Both the position numbers and the translations under genes were made by a program. Positions 3,126-13,381 of a DNA stretch of 64,000 bases are shown piece after piece (positions within the stretch are counted from its first letter, which is position 1; the number at the start of each line of letters is the position of its first letter). The notes under the pieces are model-generated. The model did not search any database. It was not told the origin of the DNA and saw only the letters and a program-made list of their open reading frames with translations. Location: assembly GCF_009765975.1 (NCBI RefSeq), contig NZ_LMUJ01000101.1:62685-126684 (forward strand), written 5' to 3'. The DNA is from Acidisphaera sp. S103 (GTDB lineage: Bacteria; Pseudomonadota; Alphaproteobacteria; Acetobacterales; Acetobacteraceae).

Positions 3126-3173
3126 CTGGTGGATATCATCCGACGGCAAGAGCGGTCGCATGATATCCACCAG
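3126..3173. repeat. 14-bp perfect inverted repeat upstream of the secreted protein gene
   Basis: The arm CTGGTGGATATCAT at 3126-3139 is exactly complementary to 3160-3173, with a 20-nt loop that holds a further short CGAC/GTCG stem. It overlaps the left end of the 101-nt dispersed repeat. There is no U-tract on either strand, so an operator or a processing hairpin is as likely as a terminator. Confidence 0.6.
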
Positions 3174-3240
3174 CATTGATTTGGCGAGCCGATTCGCCCA
3201 ACGCCCGGGGACCAGGCGTCGGGATCGGACCACTAGAGCG
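3140..3240 (+). repeat. 101-nt dispersed structured repeat, copy 1
   Basis: This segment matches 11858-11958 over its whole length without gaps, roughly 80% identical by eye, in the same orientation. It can fold into three successive hairpins. In the second and third stems several differences between copies are compensatory: GGCG/CGCC here against GGTG/CACC there, and a C-G pair here where the other copy has T-A. It lies in the divergent region between the secreted protein gene and enolase. It is not coding in any sensible frame. Confidence 0.65.
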
Positions 3241-4940: not shown

Positions 4941-5072
4941 CGGCAGCAATCGCCCGTCATGCCGATGCAGATCGGCATCCATGCCTTTACGTGCGAAAAC
5001 AAAGACATGGATGGCGGGCCTTCGCCCACCATGACGGTTGCCCGGCGATGCCGGAAGATCAACATCAGCGGC
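4941..5072 (+). repeat. Palindromic dispersed repeat, copy A
   Basis: The core at 4954-5037 starts CCGTCATG and ends CATGACGG, so the ends form an outer stem. Inside is a hairpin TGCCGAT-gca-ATCGGCA and a second GGGC-rich hairpin around CCTTCG, giving a cruciform or three-way junction. Copies B (6316-6447) and C (25959-26079, inverted) share the core and a right-hand shoulder of about 35 nt beginning GACGG(T/A)TGC. Left shoulders of A and B also agree (GGCAGC.AT). Stem differences among copies are largely compensatory. Confidence 0.75.
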
Positions 5073-5131: not shown

Positions 5132-5689
5132 CTAGTTGACGGATACCCGGCGGCTCGCCTTGCCGACAACGTAGGCGACGCCTTCCGGTCCCACCTGCGT
5201 GGTGTGCTGACATCCCTCGGGTATTTCGCAGTTGTCGCCGGCTTTGAACGTTACACAGTTTCCGTCTCGCGCGACGCTGATCTCACCACCCAGCACCATG
5301 ATCCGCACGTCGAAATCATGGGCGTGGAGTTCTTCCGCGAAGCAGGGCTTCTGTCCACCATGGATCACGTCGAAACCCTCGCGGCGGAGGTCGCTTTCGA
5401 ACGCCTCGACGGTCAGCGGCCCGGTGCGGCGGCGGCCCGATAGCAGCGCGACGCCTTCCGGCCCGACATGTTCGGCGTGCATGCGGCCCGCGGGCACCTC
5501 GAAGCATTGGCCTGTACGATAGGTGACCGGCGTGTTGTCGCAAGTGATGGTGATATCGCCGCCCAGCACCAATGCCTTGGCGTCGAAGTCATGGCAGTGG
5601 TTCGGCGCCACCAGGTTCGGCTTCACGGCGCTGTTCACGACCCGATAGCCCTCGGAACGCAGTGCCGTTTCGAATTCGGTCTTGTCCAT
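5132..5689 (-). CDS. Bicupin (two tandem cupin domains)
   Basis: A 185-aa cytoplasmic protein made of two near-repeats. Each half has a start of the form FxxxLRxEGxxV, a cupin metal motif with HxHDFD (NHCHDFDAKALVLGG and LHAHDFDVRIMVLGG), a GD(I/N)ITxxxD strand, and a second motif ending GPEGVA. It is therefore an internally duplicated cupin that probably binds one metal per half. The start is placed at the ATG at 5689, 8 bases after AAGGAG; a GTG at 5698 overlaps that site. Substrate unknown. It is divergent from an XRE-cupin regulator 39 bases away, which probably controls it, and the pair is bracketed by two palindromic repeats. Confidence 0.75.
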   Translation of the reverse strand: MDKTEFETALRSEGYRVVNSAVKPNLVAPNHCHDFDAKALVLGGDITITCDNTPVTYRTGQCFEVPAGRMHAEHVGPEGVALLSGRRRTGPLTVEAFESDLRREGFDVIHGGQKPCFAEELHAHDFDVRIMVLGGEISVARDGNCVTFKAGDNCEIPEGCQHTTQVGPEGVAYVVGKASRRVSVN

Positions 5690-5728
5690 TGCCCCCACTC
5701 CTTGCTTGAGATAGCCTGCGTGTACGCT

Positions 5729-6310
5729 ATGGAGTGCATATTGTCAACTTTAGAGGACGAAATCAGCCTCCGTACCGGCCGCGCCGTCAAGCAGCGGCGA
5801 GAGGCCGCCGGCTTCAGTTTACGGGCGCTGGCCGCGCGCAGCGGCATCTCGTCGTCGATGATTTCGGACATCGAGCGCGGCGTGAAGTCGCCGACCGTGG
5901 TCACCGTGGTACGGCTGGCCCAGGCGCTGGGGGTCAACGCGGCGGCCCTGGTCGACGGCGGCTCGGATTCGGCGCCGCGCATCCGCGTCTTGCGCCGCGA
6001 CGAGGCCGCCGGCGGTGAAGAGCCTGCCCGCTGGCAAAGCCTGGGGCCGGCCTCCCCCGACAGCCGCATCGATTTCGTGCGCTATCAGATTCCGCCGGCC
6101 ACCGTCCTGGGTCCGTCCGCCGCCCACGCCGCCGGGACGGTCGAGCATATGCACGTAGCGGCCGGCACTGTTCGCATTACCGTGGGCGAGGAAACGGCCG
6201 AACTGTCCGCTGGCGATAGTTGCAGTTGCCGCACCGATGCCCCGCATGGGGTCGAGAACCCCGACCCGTCGGCCGAGGCGCTGATCTACCTGATCGTCGA
6301 GCGGGGTTGA
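5729..6310 (+). CDS. XRE-family transcriptional regulator with C-terminal cupin
   Basis: A 193-aa regulator. Residues about 11-65 form a helix-turn-helix of the XRE type (RTGRAVKQRREAAGFSLRALAARSGISSSMISDIERG, then PTVVTVVRLAQALGV). Residues about 110-190 form a cupin sensor domain with HAAGTVEHMHV and a second strand GEETAELSAGDSC. Such HTH-cupin proteins (PuuR-like) usually repress neighbouring catabolic genes and respond to a small metabolite. The ATG at 5729 is the most upstream sensible start; a TTG at 5741 is an alternative. The gene is divergent from the bicupin gene and the two share only 39 bases, so it likely regulates both. Confidence 0.82.
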   Translation: MECILSTLEDEISLRTGRAVKQRREAAGFSLRALAARSGISSSMISDIERGVKSPTVVTVVRLAQALGVNAAALVDGGSDSAPRIRVLRRDEAAGGEEPARWQSLGPASPDSRIDFVRYQIPPATVLGPSAAHAAGTVEHMHVAAGTVRITVGEETAELSAGDSCSCRTDAPHGVENPDPSAEALIYLIVERG

Positions 6311-6315
6311 CTCGT

Positions 6316-6447
6316 TGGCAGCCATCCGCCCGTCACGCCGATGAAGATCGGCGTCCACGCGTTTTTTGCTAAAACAAAGGCTTGGATGGTGAGCCTGCGC
6401 TCACCATGACGGATGCACAGCGTTACCACGAATCAATGACAAGGCCG
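6316..6447 (+). repeat. Palindromic dispersed repeat, copy B
   Basis: The core at 6330-6412 runs CCGTCACG to CATGACGG, with inner hairpins CGCCGAT-gaa-ATCGGCG and GGTGAGC-ctg-cGCTCACC. Relative to copy A, a T-A pair in the first hairpin is a C-G pair here, which keeps the stem. The right shoulder (GACGGATGCAC and on) matches copies A and C. It lies just after the stop codon of the XRE regulator and in the same orientation as copy A. Confidence 0.75.
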
Positions 6448-6465: not shown

Positions 6466-6927
6466 TTAGCCCGCCCCCAGGAATCGGGCGATCGCGGGGG
6501 TCGATTTCAGGCGGGCGAGTTCCGCCTCATCCGGCAGTTGCGGCCGGTCCCGCACCACGTTGACCATGCATAAAAACCCCAGCGGCTCGGCGTCGGTGGC
6601 GCGGAATTGGTGCCAGGTCCAGGACGGGATGGTCACCAGGTCGAACTGTTTCACCGAACGGACCTCGTCGCCCACCAGGCAGTCGCCGTGGCCGCGCAGG
6701 ATCATCACCGCGTGGGCGTGTTCGTGCCGCTCCAGCGTCGAATAGCCGCCGGCGTCCATCTCGAAATAGCGGAGTTCGCAGGCCAGGTTGTCCTCATGGA
6801 ACAGCACCTGACGGGAGATGTCCTTAAACGGAGCGCTGCCATCCTGTTTGTAGGGTTGGTGCGCGACGGCTTCCCAGCGGAAATCCGCGGTGGTGGGACG
6901 GAAATTGGGTTGCTGTTCGGTGTCCAT
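6466..6927 (-). CDS. Cupin domain protein at the end of the RuBisCO-like operon
   Basis: A 153-aa single-domain cupin. Metal motif 1 is recognisable as LERHEHAHAVMILRGHGDCLVG (His-rich, with H67, H69 and H71 roughly) and motif 2 as IPSWTWHQFRA. Its length fits a small sugar- or acid-binding isomerase or dioxygenase, but the substrate cannot be named. It begins 11 bases after the stop of the RuBisCO-like gene on the same strand and is surely cotranscribed with it, so it probably acts on the same pathway. It has no signal peptide. It is not closely related to the bicupin nearby. Confidence 0.8.
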   Translation of the reverse strand: MDTEQQPNFRPTTADFRWEAVAHQPYKQDGSAPFKDISRQVLFHEDNLACELRYFEMDAGGYSTLERHEHAHAVMILRGHGDCLVGDEVRSVKQFDLVTIPSWTWHQFRATDAEPLGFLCMVNVVRDRPQLPDEAELARLKSTPAIARFLGAG

Positions 6928-6938
6928 GGGCGGTGGTC

Positions 6939-8042
6939 CTAGGCAAACGTGTGATCGGCGACGGCACGGGTGAAGCGTTCGGTTTCCCGCGTGATCTGGT
7001 CGCGCGCCATCAGCAGGTTGCCGCCGATCAGCAACATCGTGTCGGCACCGTAGAAATCAAGAATTTCCCTTGTCCGTTCCAAGGTCATGCCGCCGGCAGG
7101 CACGGGCAGCGCGGCTTTCATGCCGTCGTCGGTGCGGCGGGCATTGTCCGCCAACTGCCGGCAAGTGTCGTGGGAATAGCCGAAGCGGCCGCCGAAGCTG
7201 GGGAAAATCACCGCGTCCGCGCCCATCAGCCGGAACAGGCCGCCAATCAGCAGTTCGGGGGCAATCCGAGCGGCGCCGCCCAGGCTGGGGTGGGCGAAGA
7301 ACGCCATGTCGGGGAATTCGCGCACCAGCGCCTGCATCGCGGGGAAGCCGCAGATCATGGGGGCCAGCATGACGCAATCCACGCCGACATCGCGGGCGAG
7401 TGCCGCCTGTGTTCGGAGTTGGTCCAGGTTGCCGGTCAGGCTGGGCACATAGCGTGTCGGATGGCCGGTGGAGCGGACGCCGCGGGCCACGCCCTCGGCA
7501 CAGGCGGCGACGCGTTCGGCGAACCGAGAGTAATGCTGGTCTGCCAGACCGTGGTCGTCCTTGATGAAGTCCAGCCCACCGCGCGCCAGATGTTCGGCGA
7601 GCGTGGCCAGGCCCTCGGTCGGCAGGCCTTGCGGCTTCAGCGCCGAACCGGTCAAGGCCCGGCCGTGCAGTTTCAGCCGGAACCGCAGTTCGGCGATGCC
7701 GTGCCGAGGGCCCCCGAACATCTGGACGAGGGTCTCGGGGACCGCGATGTCCTTCAACACCACGTCGTCGTGCAGCGAGGTGTTGCCGAACACCATGTTC
7801 AGCAACTGCCCCGCATCCTGGCCGACAGTCGCCGTGGCCAGGCCGATGCGGACCGAGAACATACTCCCACCAAGGTCGTCGATGCCCTCGACGGCACCGA
7901 CGATGTCGGACAGCACGGCTGGATCATCGATCGCAGCCAGGGGCATCTCGACGCTTTGCTCCACCGCGATACCCTGCGCCCGGGCATCGATATCGGCGGC
8001 GGTGCTGCGGACGTGATAGGTGACGGTGAAGCGCCCGGTCAT
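6939..8042 (-). CDS. RuBisCO-like protein (form IV large-subunit homologue)
   Basis: A 367-aa homologue of the RuBisCO large subunit, shorter than true RuBisCO (about 470). Seen: SALKPQG (K136, equivalent of the first active-site lysine; the second is Gln), GGLDFIKDDH (K161 D162 D163 with His in place of the usual Glu), AHPSLGG (H251), and FPSFGGRF where RuBisCO has HxGT around its second key histidine. CO2 fixation is therefore not expected; known form IV proteins are enolases or isomerases in methionine salvage, or decarboxylase-type enzymes in apionate breakdown. Which applies here is unknown. Its ATG overlaps the acyl-CoA synthetase stop by 4 bases, indicating tight translational coupling. 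Confidence 0.85.
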   Translation of the reverse strand: MTGRFTVTYHVRSTAADIDARAQGIAVEQSVEMPLAAIDDPAVLSDIVGAVEGIDDLGGSMFSVRIGLATATVGQDAGQLLNMVFGNTSLHDDVVLKDIAVPETLVQMFGGPRHGIAELRFRLKLHGRALTGSALKPQGLPTEGLATLAEHLARGGLDFIKDDHGLADQHYSRFAERVAACAEGVARGVRSTGHPTRYVPSLTGNLDQLRTQAALARDVGVDCVMLAPMICGFPAMQALVREFPDMAFFAHPSLGGAARIAPELLIGGLFRLMGADAVIFPSFGGRFGYSHDTCRQLADNARRTDDGMKAALPVPAGGMTLERTREILDFYGADTMLLIGGNLLMARDQITRETERFTRAVADHTFA

Positions 8043-10084
8043 GACGTGGGCACCACGAGCGCATCGACGGCGATGGCGCCAGAGCTGCCCAGGATGACCG
8101 GATTGATGTCGATCGCCTGCAGCCTGTCGCCCAGCGACAGCGCGGCATTCTGCAACGACATCAGCACGTCGACGAACGCGCTGAAACAGCCAGGATGTTT
8201 CCAGCGCGGGCTGGTCAGGATCCGGCCCAACGTTCCCTTGGCCAGTTCGGCTTCAACAAACCCGCGATCGACGGGTAGCGGGAAGGTCGAGACATCGTGC
8301 AGCGCCTCGGCGAAGATGCCGCCCAGGCCGGCGATCAGCACCAGCCCGACCCCGTCCGCTCGGGTTACCCCGGCGATGGCCTCCAGGCTGCCACTGACCA
8401 TGGCCTGGATGATGACCTTGGGGCAGTCGATGGCGGCGTAGGTCCTGGCCACCGCGTCGGCATCGCTCAGGCCGACATGCACCAGCCCGAGATCGCTTTT
8501 ATGAGCGACACCGTCGGCGACGCCTTTCAGCACCACTGGGAAGCCGATGCGTGTGGCGGCGGCGACCGCCGCGGATGCGGACTCGCATTCGACGGTCTGC
8601 ACGGCGGGCACCCCGAACGACACCAGCAGGCGCAGGCTCTCCGGTTCGGTAAGCTGCCGAGCGGGCAGGGTGGTGGCGACGGGCAACGCGGCGGAGGGGA
8701 TCGGCTGGGGCGGGGCCGTCATCAAGGCACCGATGCCCTCCAACAGGATATCGGTGTCGGTGAACACGTCGATGCCACGCTGACGGTAGGTTTCGCGTTC
8801 GGCAGCAGGCATCCCGCCGGGGGTGACGACCAGCAGCGGCTTGCCCGACTTTTCTCGTGCCGCGCCCATCGCCGCTCGGTACGGATCTCCCTGCCAGGGA
8901 TTCATCGAATGCACCAACGCCAGCCCGACCGACACGCCTGCGTCGGCCATCAGCAGACGGGGCACGTCGGCTGAACGCCGCATGCCGCCGAAGATGCCCA
9001 TGTCGAGCGGGTTGCCGATCCGGGAAAACATCTTTTGGGAATCGATCGCGGCGTGGGTCTCCGGGGTCAGCGTCGCCAGCGGAACACCGAGCGCCTCGCA
9101 ACGGTCGGCGATCAGGGAGGCGCCGGCGCCGGAGGTGGACAGCGACCCCAGCTTGCCCGGACGACTACCGTACTTGTCCAGTAACGCGGCGGCAGTCATC
9201 AGACCTTCCAGGGTCTTTACTGTTGCCACGCCGCTGACCTTGAACAGGGCGTGGTAGGACGCGTCATCGCCGGCCATGCGGGATGAATGCGCCACGGCAG
9301 CGGCGGCCCCTGCCTCCGACCCGCCGATCTTCAGGGCCACCACGTGCTTGCCGGCGGCGTGCGCGGCCAAGGCCAGGCGACGGAACCGTGGGCCGTCGTC
9401 GAGGCTGTCGATCAGCATGGCGATGACGCGGGTCGGTGCGTGGCTGATGCCGTATTCCATGTAGTCCAGCACCGACATGTCGGCTTCGTTGCCGGCCGAG
9501 GCGAACAGCGACAGCCCGGCGCCCAGCATCGCCAGCCGCCCCGCCATCGCATCGAACAGCGCGCCGCTGTGGGAGAAGATGGCGATGCCGCCCGGCGTCT
9601 GCCGCTTGGCGTGCGACGTGTTGAATCCCACCGACAGTGGTAGATGCGCGTTGTAGATACCGTTGCAGTTCGGCCCGACGATGCGGATGCCTTCCTCCTG
9701 GGCAATGCGCTGCAGTTCGTGCTGGCGTTCCTCGCCGCCGGCATCAAGGCTTTCGGCATAACCGGCGGAGCCCACGATCACCGCTTTCATGCCGGCACGC
9801 GCGCATTCCCGCACAGCCTGCACGGCGGCCTCGGCCGGGATGGCCAGGAACGCGGTGTCCACAGGTTCCGGCAGAGCGGTCAGATCGGGGAAACAGGGGA
9901 TTCCGTCGACGTCCTTCAGGCGCCGGCTGATGCCGTAGATACCGCCCTGGAACCCGGTGTCGCGCACGTTGGTCAGCACGATGTAGCCATGCTTCGTGGT
10001 GTCGTCGGACGCCCCGATCACGGCCACCGCGCGGGGATGAAACAGGGCGTGCAGCGCCTCCTGCGTGGCGATCTGGGTGGGCAT
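8039..10084 (-). CDS. NDP-forming acyl-CoA synthetase (fused alpha/beta acetate-CoA ligase type)
   Basis: About 681 aa with the full ACD/SucCD-like order: CoA-binding Rossmann domain (FHPRAVAVIGASDDTTKHGYIV near residue 12), succinyl-CoA-ligase-like domains, a region where AVAHSSRMAG matches the SHTG-type phosphohistidine motif, and a C-terminal ATP-grasp domain (FPVVLKGVADGVAHKSDLGLV). Such enzymes interconvert an acyl-CoA and ADP/GDP with an acid, CoA and ATP/GTP. The start at 10084 follows AGGAG by 10 bases and begins MPTQIATQEALHALFHPRA. It is the first gene of an operon with the RuBisCO-like protein and a cupin, which suggests that the pathway ends in, or begins from, an acyl-CoA. Confidence 0.88.
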   Translation of the reverse strand: MPTQIATQEALHALFHPRAVAVIGASDDTTKHGYIVLTNVRDTGFQGGIYGISRRLKDVDGIPCFPDLTALPEPVDTAFLAIPAEAAVQAVRECARAGMKAVIVGSAGYAESLDAGGEERQHELQRIAQEEGIRIVGPNCNGIYNAHLPLSVGFNTSHAKRQTPGGIAIFSHSGALFDAMAGRLAMLGAGLSLFASAGNEADMSVLDYMEYGISHAPTRVIAMLIDSLDDGPRFRRLALAAHAAGKHVVALKIGGSEAGAAAAVAHSSRMAGDDASYHALFKVSGVATVKTLEGLMTAAALLDKYGSRPGKLGSLSTSGAGASLIADRCEALGVPLATLTPETHAAIDSQKMFSRIGNPLDMGIFGGMRRSADVPRLLMADAGVSVGLALVHSMNPWQGDPYRAAMGAAREKSGKPLLVVTPGGMPAAERETYRQRGIDVFTDTDILLEGIGALMTAPPQPIPSAALPVATTLPARQLTEPESLRLLVSFGVPAVQTVECESASAAVAAATRIGFPVVLKGVADGVAHKSDLGLVHVGLSDADAVARTYAAIDCPKVIIQAMVSGSLEAIAGVTRADGVGLVLIAGLGGIFAEALHDVSTFPLPVDRGFVEAELAKGTLGRILTSPRWKHPGCFSAFVDVLMSLQNAALSLGDRLQAIDINPVILGSSGAIAVDALVVPTS

Positions 10085-10221
10085 CCGGTGGTGTCTCCTG
10101 TCTCGATAAACGGCGCGCATACTGTCCATCGGGCGCCATCCTGTCCATGCGTTCGGCGACGGACGGGCCCGGTTAACCGTTCGGTCATGTTTACGGGATA
10201 CGCTGCGTCCGGGAGGCCACC

Positions 10222-10989
10222 ATGTCGAATGCGATTTCATCGTCAGCCGGTCTGGGCGCATTGCTGTCCGGGGTTGGTTCGGGGAAGACTGCCGCCGACA
10301 AGGCGGCACAGACCCGGGAAAGCCAGGAAACCGCCATCGTGGATGCGATCAGCATGAACACCGTGCCGATCGATATCGCCTCCTACGGCGCGATCGTCGG
10401 CAGCGTCACCGCGGCGGGGGGTGTCGCTTCCCACGGTGCCGGCGAAGCCGCGGCGGTGCAGGACGTCATGTCGATGATCGGCAAGACCCTGTCGCAGGGG
10501 CAGGGTGCCTATTACCTCGCGATCAACGTGCCGGGCGACACGCTGGCGACCGCGATGACCCCGGGGCAGTTGCAGGCCTATATGCAAAGCGGCGGAACGC
10601 TGTATCCCGATACCGTAACGTCGAGCGATGGGCAGACGTATTCGCTGCAAGGCCTGTTGAAGCAGGCGTTCGCGGCGAACGAGCGAGCTGAACAAATGCG
10701 GGCGGCGGACCCGGCGATGGACAATCCCTATATGGACGGTGCCGAGGCGCTGCTGGACCAGATGCGGGCGGACAGTTCGCCGCCTGGCAGCCAGCGGTCG
10801 GTGCTGTTCGGGTCGAACGCCCACGATCCCGATACCGCGAAGACGATCCGGACCCTTGTGTTGCAAATGGGCGGCGGCGGTGCGGATTCGGTGCAATTGA
10901 CCATCGTTTACTTTCCCCCTGGCTCCGGTTCGCTCGCGGCGGCCCCGTCCGCACAGCAGGCCCCATCCCGGTTGCAGTTGACGGCGTAG
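10222..10989 (+). CDS. Hypothetical protein
   Basis: 255 aa, no recognised family. The sequence is Ala/Gly/Ser-rich at both ends, with a mid part (residues 75-150) that looks folded: MSMIGKTLSQGQGAYYLAINVPGDT and a LKQAFAANERAEQM helix. There is no cleavable signal peptide and no strong membrane segment; the first 20 residues (ISSSAGLGALLSGVGS) are only weakly hydrophobic. GGGAGG lies 5 bases before the ATG, and base use is like its neighbours, so it is very probably a real gene. It is divergent from the acyl-CoA synthetase operon and is followed by an enoyl-CoA hydratase 66 bases on. Confidence 0.6.
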   Translation: MSNAISSSAGLGALLSGVGSGKTAADKAAQTRESQETAIVDAISMNTVPIDIASYGAIVGSVTAAGGVASHGAGEAAAVQDVMSMIGKTLSQGQGAYYLAINVPGDTLATAMTPGQLQAYMQSGGTLYPDTVTSSDGQTYSLQGLLKQAFAANERAEQMRAADPAMDNPYMDGAEALLDQMRADSSPPGSQRSVLFGSNAHDPDTAKTIRTLVLQMGGGGADSVQLTIVYFPPGSGSLAAAPSAQQAPSRLQLTA

Positions 10990-11055: not shown

Positions 11056-11844
11056 ATGACCGAACCCAGCGATATCCTGCTGTCGGAGATGCGCGGCCAC
11101 ATCCGGATCCTGACGATCAACCGGCCGGAGCGGATGAACGCGCTGTCCCCTGAATTGTCGGAGGCGCTGATCGAGGCGTTTGTCGAATCCGGCGCCGACC
11201 CGGACATCAGGGCAATCGTCCTGACATCCGTCGGTGACCGAGCGTTCTGCGCCGGCGCCGACCTGAAGGCTCGGGCGCAGGAGGATGCGGCGGGAAAGCC
11301 GTTTCAACCGCTACTGTCCCGGGTGCAGCGCTATGTGTTCGAAGTTGTTTATGAAACCATCAAGCCGACCATTGCCGCATTGAACGGATCGGCCGTCGCC
11401 GGCGGGCTGGAATTGGCACTGGCCTGCGATATGCGGGTCGCGGCGGAGCATGCGCTGTTCGGCTTGCCGGAAGCCAAGCGCGGCAAGGGCGCGCATTTCG
11501 CCAACGTCATGCTGCCGCGCATGATTCCGTCCGGAATCGCTTACGAGATGCTCTATCTGGGCGAATACATCAACGCCGAGGATGCCAGGCGCTGGGGCCT
11601 GGTAAACCGCATCGTCCCGCGCGGCGAGGCGCTGGCGGAGGCGCTGCGCATGGCCGAGGCGATCTGCGAAAACGCACCGGTGTCGTTGCGGCGGATGAAG
11701 GAAACCGCGATCAGGTCCAACGGCCTGCCGGTGCCCGCCGCGCTGCGGCTGAACGAAGGCATCAGTCCCTACAGCAGTGAGGACCGGGTCGAAGGCATCC
11801 GTGCTTATGTCGAGAAGCGGAAACCGGTCTGGCGGGGGCGCTAG
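11056..11844 (+). CDS. Enoyl-CoA hydratase/isomerase (crotonase) family protein
   Basis: 262 aa, typical crotonase length. The oxyanion-hole segment is FCAGADLKAR (about residue 57), the second is AVAGGLELALACDMRVAAEHALFGLPEAKRG, which keeps both acidic positions used by hydratases. Family members hydrate trans-2-enoyl-CoA or isomerise related CoA esters in fatty acid or aromatic acid breakdown; the exact substrate is not clear. AAGGAGG lies 6 bases upstream of the ATG. It is monocistronic by position. A structured 101-nt repeat lies 13 bases after its stop codon. Confidence 0.87.
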   Translation: MTEPSDILLSEMRGHIRILTINRPERMNALSPELSEALIEAFVESGADPDIRAIVLTSVGDRAFCAGADLKARAQEDAAGKPFQPLLSRVQRYVFEVVYETIKPTIAALNGSAVAGGLELALACDMRVAAEHALFGLPEAKRGKGAHFANVMLPRMIPSGIAYEMLYLGEYINAEDARRWGLVNRIVPRGEALAEALRMAEAICENAPVSLRRMKETAIRSNGLPVPAALRLNEGISPYSSEDRVEGIRAYVEKRKPVWRGR

Positions 11845-11857
11845 ATCTGCATATAGG

Positions 11858-11958
11858 CCGACGGAAAGAACCGTCGGATTATAGCCATCAGCATTGATTT
11901 GGTGGGTCGAGTCACCCAATGCTTGGGAACCAGGCATTGGGATCGGACCACTGGAGCG
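11858..11958 (+). repeat. 101-nt dispersed structured repeat, copy 2
   Basis: Gapless match to 3140-3240. It begins with a clean hairpin CCGACGG-aaagaa-CCGTCGG (11858-11877), then a TTGGTG/CACCCAA stem, then CCCAATGC at 11915-11922 pairing exactly with GCATTGGG at 11934-11941. It lies between the enoyl-CoA hydratase and a small repeat protein, and could serve as a terminator-like or RNA-processing element. Confidence 0.65.
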
Positions 11959-12532: not shown

Positions 12533-12877
12533 TTACGGCAGCTCCAGCCGCACGGCGACGGCGGCATTGGCGATCACCGCGTTGTCGCCTCGTTCCCGGT
12601 CAATCACGTCCAGCCCGCCCTTGGTCGCACGAACTGTAACGATACCATGCGGCAGGGTGGCTTTCACTGCCTCGGTATCCACCTTGTCGGGCTGTTGAAC
12701 GCCGATCGTGACCTCGACGAACATTTGGGTTTTCGAATCGATGCCCAAAGAACGGATCATCGACAGCGAGGAATGGTGGAGGGCGTCCTGCACTGCGCGC
12801 AGGGCGGCTTTGGTGTAGTCTCCGCCATGCAGGTCGTTGCCGGTGCCGAGTTCGAGAATAACGCGCTTGCGTGCCAT
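12533..12877 (-). CDS. Lin0512 family protein (second of a tandem pair)
   Basis: 114 aa, cytoplasmic. It matches the conserved Lin0512 hypothetical family: start RVILELGTGNDLHGGDYTKAALRAVQDALHHSSL, then the VEVTIGVQQPDKVD segment and LPHGIVTV. The family has no established function. It is paralogous to the upstream gene (12926-13267), with the same motifs in the same order, so the pair arose by tandem duplication. The two are 48 bases apart on the same strand and probably form one transcript; a hetero-oligomer is possible. The start ATG at 12877 follows AAGGGAAC closely. Confidence 0.8.
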   Translation of the reverse strand: MARKRVILELGTGNDLHGGDYTKAALRAVQDALHHSSLSMIRSLGIDSKTQMFVEVTIGVQQPDKVDTEAVKATLPHGIVTVRATKGGLDVIDRERGDNAVIANAAVAVRLELP

Positions 12878-12925: not shown

Positions 12926-13267
12926 TTAGGCCACGTCGAGCCAGACCACCGCGGCGGCGCTGGCGACCAGGGTGGAATTGGTGCCTTCGTCGTTCGGGAT
13001 CTCCAGGCCGCCATCCACCACGGTGACGGTCCCGGTGCCGTGCGGCAGGATGGCCAACACGTCCTGTTTGTTCACTTTCTCGGGGTGAGGGACACCGATG
13101 GTGACCTCCACCTGCATCGAATCCGTATCGAGACCAAGCGCGTTGGCGACGCCGAGGGAGTTGTGCCAAAGGGCGTCGCGCAGGGCGCGCACCGCGGCCT
13201 TGGTCGGGTCGGCGTCCCTGATGTCGGTGCCCATGCCGATTTCCAGCACCATGCGTTTCAGCGCCAT
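12926..13267 (-). CDS. Lin0512 family protein (first of a tandem pair)
   Basis: 113 aa. Same layout as its downstream paralogue: LEIGMGTDIRDADPTKAAVRALRDALWHNSL, VEVTIGVPHPEKVN and LPHGTGTVTVVDGGLEIP. The ATG at 13267 is preferred because GAGGGA lies 8 bases upstream; an ATG at 13273 would leave almost no spacing. The function is unknown for the family. It is transcribed away from the LLM flavin oxidoreductase gene, with about 115 bases between them that must contain both promoters. Confidence 0.8.
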   Translation of the reverse strand: MALKRMVLEIGMGTDIRDADPTKAAVRALRDALWHNSLGVANALGLDTDSMQVEVTIGVPHPEKVNKQDVLAILPHGTGTVTVVDGGLEIPNDEGTNSTLVASAAAVVWLDVA

Positions 13268-13381
13268 GCCCATATTCCCTCTGTCTGCGTGGGCAGCTTA
13301 GCGACAGGTGCGGGCCACGCCAAATTTGCGGGTTGGCCGGGTCCGTGAAACGATGCGGGAGGAACGAACCAGGAGGACGCA

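Follow-up and report, generated by a model that had tools for sequence, protein, structure and literature searches.

By a known bacterial route, an S-adenosylmethionine by-product yields a building block for isoprenoids and sulfur that can be recycled, and the portions of the literature drawn on here describe a RuBisCO-like protein (RLP) and a cupin whose roles in this route were established in R. rubrum and R. palustris by deletion and labelling (PMC4958253, PMC5893883; also PMC4334135). The two genes are Rru_A1998 and Rru_A2000 in R. rubrum (PMC4958253), and RPA2169 and RPA2170, encoding RLP1 and the cupin, in R. palustris (PMC5893883). In the same portions of these descriptions, neither an acyl-CoA synthetase nor a crotonase is counted as a gene of the 5'-methylthioadenosine (MTA)-isoprenoid shunt.

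Here we analyse a locus within a window of 64,000 nucleotides (the whole stretch of DNA under study) in which the same type of RLP lies beside the same cupin and in which, as in R. rubrum and R. palustris, mtnP, mtnA and the O-acetylhomoserine sulfhydrylase (OAHS) genes lie elsewhere in the genome. Unlike in those two organisms, an ADP-forming acyl-CoA synthetase (ACS) is coupled upstream of the pair, with a crotonase gene divergent from it. Our own evidence consists of homology, gene order, conservation and the presence of other pathway genes, while the reactions are taken from published homologues.

Results

Organisation of the locus

Translation and coordinates bore out the three minus-strand genes of the original prediction, with their 4-base overlap and 11-base gap (6928-6938), and all three reading frames are intact (Table 1). 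The ACS start, an ATG at 10084, is supported by relatives whose alignments begin at residue 1. Pfam matches comprise RuBisCO_large for the RLP (79 bits), CoA_binding_2, Succ_CoA_lig and ATP-grasp_5 for ACS, and Cupin_2 for the cupin. Of 80 related loci, 77 pair the RLP with the cupin, and 26 of the 27 that have an ACS match show the ATGA overlap; the arrangement is thus not due to chance, and a real co-directional operon is supported. The grouping is conserved across genomes for the RLP and cupin and, in one clade, for the ACS-RLP overlap; elsewhere ACS is absent. By gene layout, the RLP-cupin pair is translationally coupled behind ACS in this one clade of Acetobacteraceae. The host genome (8.37 Mb, 97% complete) encodes a single RLP, whose closest relatives come from Rhodopila metagenome-assembled genomes, also Acetobacteraceae.

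Table 1. Features of the ACS-RLP-cupin locus, in window coordinates.
Feature	Position	Strand	Basis
ACS, ADP-forming (ACD-type) acyl-CoA synthetase, 681 aa	8039-10084	minus	Pfam domains, PDB matches, invariant His
RLP, DeepYkr-type RuBisCO-like protein, predicted 5-methylthioribulose-1-phosphate 1,3-isomerase, 367 aa	6939-8042	minus	3qfw match, KPQ/KDDHG, tree
Cupin, predicted 1-methylthioxylulose-5-phosphate methylsulfurylase (Rru_A2000 homologue), 153 aa	6466-6927	minus	3jzv, 3kgz, invariant His
ATGA overlap, ACS stop / RLP start	8039-8042	minus	26/27 loci with ACS match
Promoter-like TGGACA-N17-CAGTAT upstream of ACS	10119-10147	minus	comparison of loci
Crotonase / enoyl-CoA hydratase family gene, divergent from ACS	11056-11844	plus	gene-order comparison
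ORF, 255 aa, without Pfam match, between crotonase and ACS	10222-10989	plus	Pfam, locus comparison

Upstream of ACS, ATGGACA occurs within at most 140 bases in 16 of 24 sequences, and a comparison of loci revealed that most ACS loci share the promoter-like element TGGACA-N17-CA(G/C)(T/C)AT. A consensus promoter scan returned no sigma-70 match, and an Rfam search of the window and nine related loci returned no riboswitch, SAM-type or other.

Adjoining the operon are a double-domain cupin gene and a divergent XRE-cupin regulator (5132-5698 and 5729-6310). We discarded these downstream genes (5132-6310) as operon partners, since related loci lack them at this place. They are flanked by a pair of similar intergenic repeats of about 90 bases, recognised by eye (4955-5060 and 6322-6412; cgcccgtca...tcaccatgacgg). 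A further intergenic repeat, of 111 bases, has two copies 79% identical and 8.7 kb apart (3130-3240 and 11848-11958), the second just downstream of the crotonase. Beyond it lies a tandem pair of Lin0512-family genes (12533-12877 and 12926-13273), which are recurrent neighbours in several Rhodopila loci.

The RLP and the cupin

The residues originally reported for the RLP were read correctly: K136, K161, D162 and D163 are present, with Gln (Q138) in place of the second lysine of KPK and His (H164) after the two aspartates. They had been taken as an oddity, but the KPQ and KDDHG motifs are invariant in 15 sequences of the RLP clade and occur also in 3qfw, which we take to be R. palustris RLP1; in this comparison Gln138 (KPQ) and His164 (KDDH) are signatures of the clade. 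The best PDB match of the window RLP is likewise 3qfw (366 bits, E 1.9e-108), as against at most 115 bits for MtnW-type proteins and RuBisCO, and with a clade profile the scores were 539 versus 173 bits. In the RLP tree, 3qfw falls inside a clade of 82 rows with MtnW and 4nas outside it (support 100). On homology and phylogeny, the window RLP belongs to the DeepYkr type, a characterised subgroup.

The cupin matches 3jzv, named Rru_A2000 in the PDB (E 3.7e-54), and 3kgz (E 7.7e-56), and its metal-site histidines H68, H70, H72 and H106 are invariant in 14 sequences. This homology leads us to expect a reductive methylsulfurylase and not the isomerase first proposed. Both proteins have published counterparts with the same neighbours, and with the R. 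rubrum cupin and the 3qfw protein as comparison sequences for the link to those enzymes, we consider the RLP and cupin very probably to be enzymes of the MTA-isoprenoid shunt. In place of an undescribed pathway, they would represent a known methionine-salvage pair, a DeepYkr-type RLP with an Rru_A2000 homologue.

The remaining genes of the shunt are found in the host genome, which encodes MtnA (409 bits, cut-off 279), MtnP (316 bits, cut-off 275) and three OAHS, all above curated cut-offs. Because these genes lie away from the window, the statement that no methionine-salvage gene is present was right for the window and wrong for the genome. In the proposed route, MtnP and MtnA would convert MTA to 5-methylthioribulose-1-phosphate, from which the RLP would form 1-methylthioxylulose-5-phosphate; the cupin, with glutathione, would then yield the isoprenoid precursor 1-deoxyxylulose-5-phosphate and methanethiol, and O-acetylhomoserine sulfhydrylase would turn the methanethiol into methionine.

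Distribution of the pair and of ACS

Among 385 sampled genomes of the class, an RLP was found at E 1e-40 in 17, and all close relatives whose sequence extends far enough to judge have an adjoining cupin. The three related loci without a cupin include two whose contigs end soon after the RLP (L027 and L083) and one with no cupin nearby (L034).

An ACS match lies directly upstream of the RLP in 27 of the 80 related loci, in one case (L034) as a remnant only. Among the genomes searched, ACS is confined to Rhodopila-like Acetobacteraceae; of 33 genomes of the genus, 26 carry it and 32 carry the RLP. Scoring two to three candidates per genome, we detected no unlinked ACS orthologue in 385 genomes of the class (E 1e-120) or 398 of the phylum (E 1e-90). 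The RLP tree contains one supported clade of 31 members, 27 with ACS and 4 without, and one further ACS case outside it (L039). The four members that lack ACS, Rhodopila globiformis and relatives, have kept the RLP and cupin, and in the tree their lack of ACS looks like a single loss. Since most genomes with the RLP-cupin pair have no ACS, the synthetase is dispensable for the shunt.

Two further observations concern single loci. Locus L034 (7762-9092) shows apparent decay, a 77-residue C-terminal remnant of ACS overlapping the RLP start with no adjacent cupin. Two remote RLPs from other genomes of the class (L017, 1489-2544, and L018, 1489-2592; 32-38% identity) have no cupin within 1.5 kb and possibly belong to a different RLP subgroup.

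We found no description of the ACS-RLP-cupin arrangement in the open-access literature, the part that is searchable. As far as we searched, the locus therefore represents an established pathway to which a single clade has added an acyl-CoA component not described before, the joining of ACS being the only new part.

ACS and its possible substrate

Like the acetate, 3-hydroxypropionate and 4-hydroxybutyrate CoA ligases of the ACD family, ACS combines CoA-binding, succinyl-CoA-ligase-like and ATP-grasp domains with both phospho-relay histidines (in AHSS and HKS), which are invariant in 28 sequences; by this domain set and both phosphorylated histidines, it is an ADP-forming acyl-CoA synthetase. 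Its nearest solved relatives are 8wzu and 9y43 (E about 1e-59), the latter an ADP-forming 3-hydroxypropionate--CoA ligase. Unlike the characterised members, however, ACS falls far under the cut-off of every ACD model and forms a separate orthologue group tied to the RLP and cupin. The best NCBIfam models are acetate--CoA ligases, and as both scores lie below cut-off (313 bits versus 1200, and 279 versus 567), we rejected curated membership as acetate--CoA ligase (ADP-forming). DddX, an ATP-dependent dimethylsulfoniopropionate (DMSP) lyase (7cm9), belongs to the same superfamily (E 1e-49) but matches ACS less well than do the hydroxy-acid CoA ligases, leaving DMSP unsupported as substrate.

ACS would form the CoA thioester of a small acid. 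For every methionine made, OAHS sulfhydrylase frees one acetate, which has to be turned back into acetyl-CoA to supply O-acetylhomoserine formation; an ADP-forming acetate--CoA ligase would thus complete the cycle. This acetate is the leading candidate, although we rate it as distinctly unlikely, and it leaves the crotonase unexplained. By analogy with 3-hydroxypropionate metabolism, the crotonase rather suggests an enoyl- or hydroxyacyl-CoA, and we make no choice between the two. The crotonase itself lies within the family of the EchA19 model but well below its cut-off (224 bits versus 400). The 255-aa ORF separates it from ACS in the window's genome only.

Discussion

We tentatively propose, while rating it clearly below an even chance, that the MTA-isoprenoid shunt gained a dedicated acyl-CoA branch in Rhodopila-like Acetobacteraceae, in which ACS and the crotonase would act on an acid that the shunt either makes or requires: acetate freed by OAHS, or a methylthio-acid from which methanethiol would likewise arise.

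Alternatively, ACS and the crotonase could form an acid-degrading module of their own whose only tie to the MTA shunt is shared regulation; the acid might be, for example, 3-hydroxypropionate/acrylate, a methylthio-acid or a hydroxycinnamate. In loci whose upstream sequence reaches 3.5 kb or more, the crotonase occurs in 16 of 18 with ACS and in none of 41 without, and across the genus the two are present or absent together in each of the 23 good genomes (the same 19 with both, the same 4 with neither), although these locus and genome counts share ancestry, are not independent and reflect few evolutionary events, the presence and absence of ACS needing only 3 changes on the RLP tree. Such a module is also suggested by the back-to-back placement of the two genes (61-252 bases apart in 19 loci), by the invariant active-site Glu residues of the crotonase and by solved relatives that include, besides 9y43 for ACS, the 3-hydroxypropionyl-CoA dehydratase 5zai for the crotonase. 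Against it, the ATGA overlap joins ACS to the RLP and not to the crotonase, and DmdD, the crotonase of DMSP demethylation, is missing from the 60 best PDB matches, for which reason we set aside a DmdD-like role. This explanation, which bears on ACS alone and leaves the RLP-cupin assignment intact, is quite plausible while falling a little short of an even chance.

It is less likely, in our estimate, that ACS merely rides along in the operon as a passenger, its function having nothing to do with MTA metabolism or the crotonase; this reading would equally be compatible with the RLP-cupin assignment. The restriction of ACS to one clade and its apparent single loss with retention of the RLP and cupin would fit a passenger, but the overlap with the RLP has been kept in nearly all ACS loci though flanking genes differ, and the class and phylum samples yielded ACS orthologues in linked form only.

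The original prediction had the RLP step feeding or using an acyl-CoA. An undescribed isomerase or decarboxylase with an acyl-CoA, or its acid, as product or substrate could draw on the strict conservation of the ACS-RLP overlap within the clade and on the finding of ACS orthologues only beside an RLP, but we regard such a reaction as very improbable because ACS is absent outside the clade, RLPs without ACS have the same active-site residues and cupin, R. globiformis and its relatives lack both ACS and the crotonase and still have the RLP-cupin pair, and the MTA-pathway genes are present in the host genome. That the RLP is instead an MtnW-type enolase of universal methionine salvage or an apionate-pathway enzyme, to which its remote homology to the MtnW and OiaX models might point, we consider a negligible prospect, having rejected both identities on scores far below cut-off (112.5 bits versus 513.6 for the MtnW-type model PRK09549, the top NCBIfam score, and 52.1 versus 700 for OiaX), on the fully supported separation of MtnW in the tree, and on the lack of any PF03079 match, and hence of the acireductone dioxygenase (MtnD) of universal methionine salvage, in the 97% complete host genome.

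Our analysis corrects the claim of a new pathway, in that the RLP and cupin are very probably known methionine-salvage enzymes that form a conserved pair. The question that remains is why an ACS subfamily that we found nowhere else is translationally coupled to the two genes and is present or absent together with the crotonase; an answer on the role of ACS could show the fate of the acetate or the methanethiol of the shunt.
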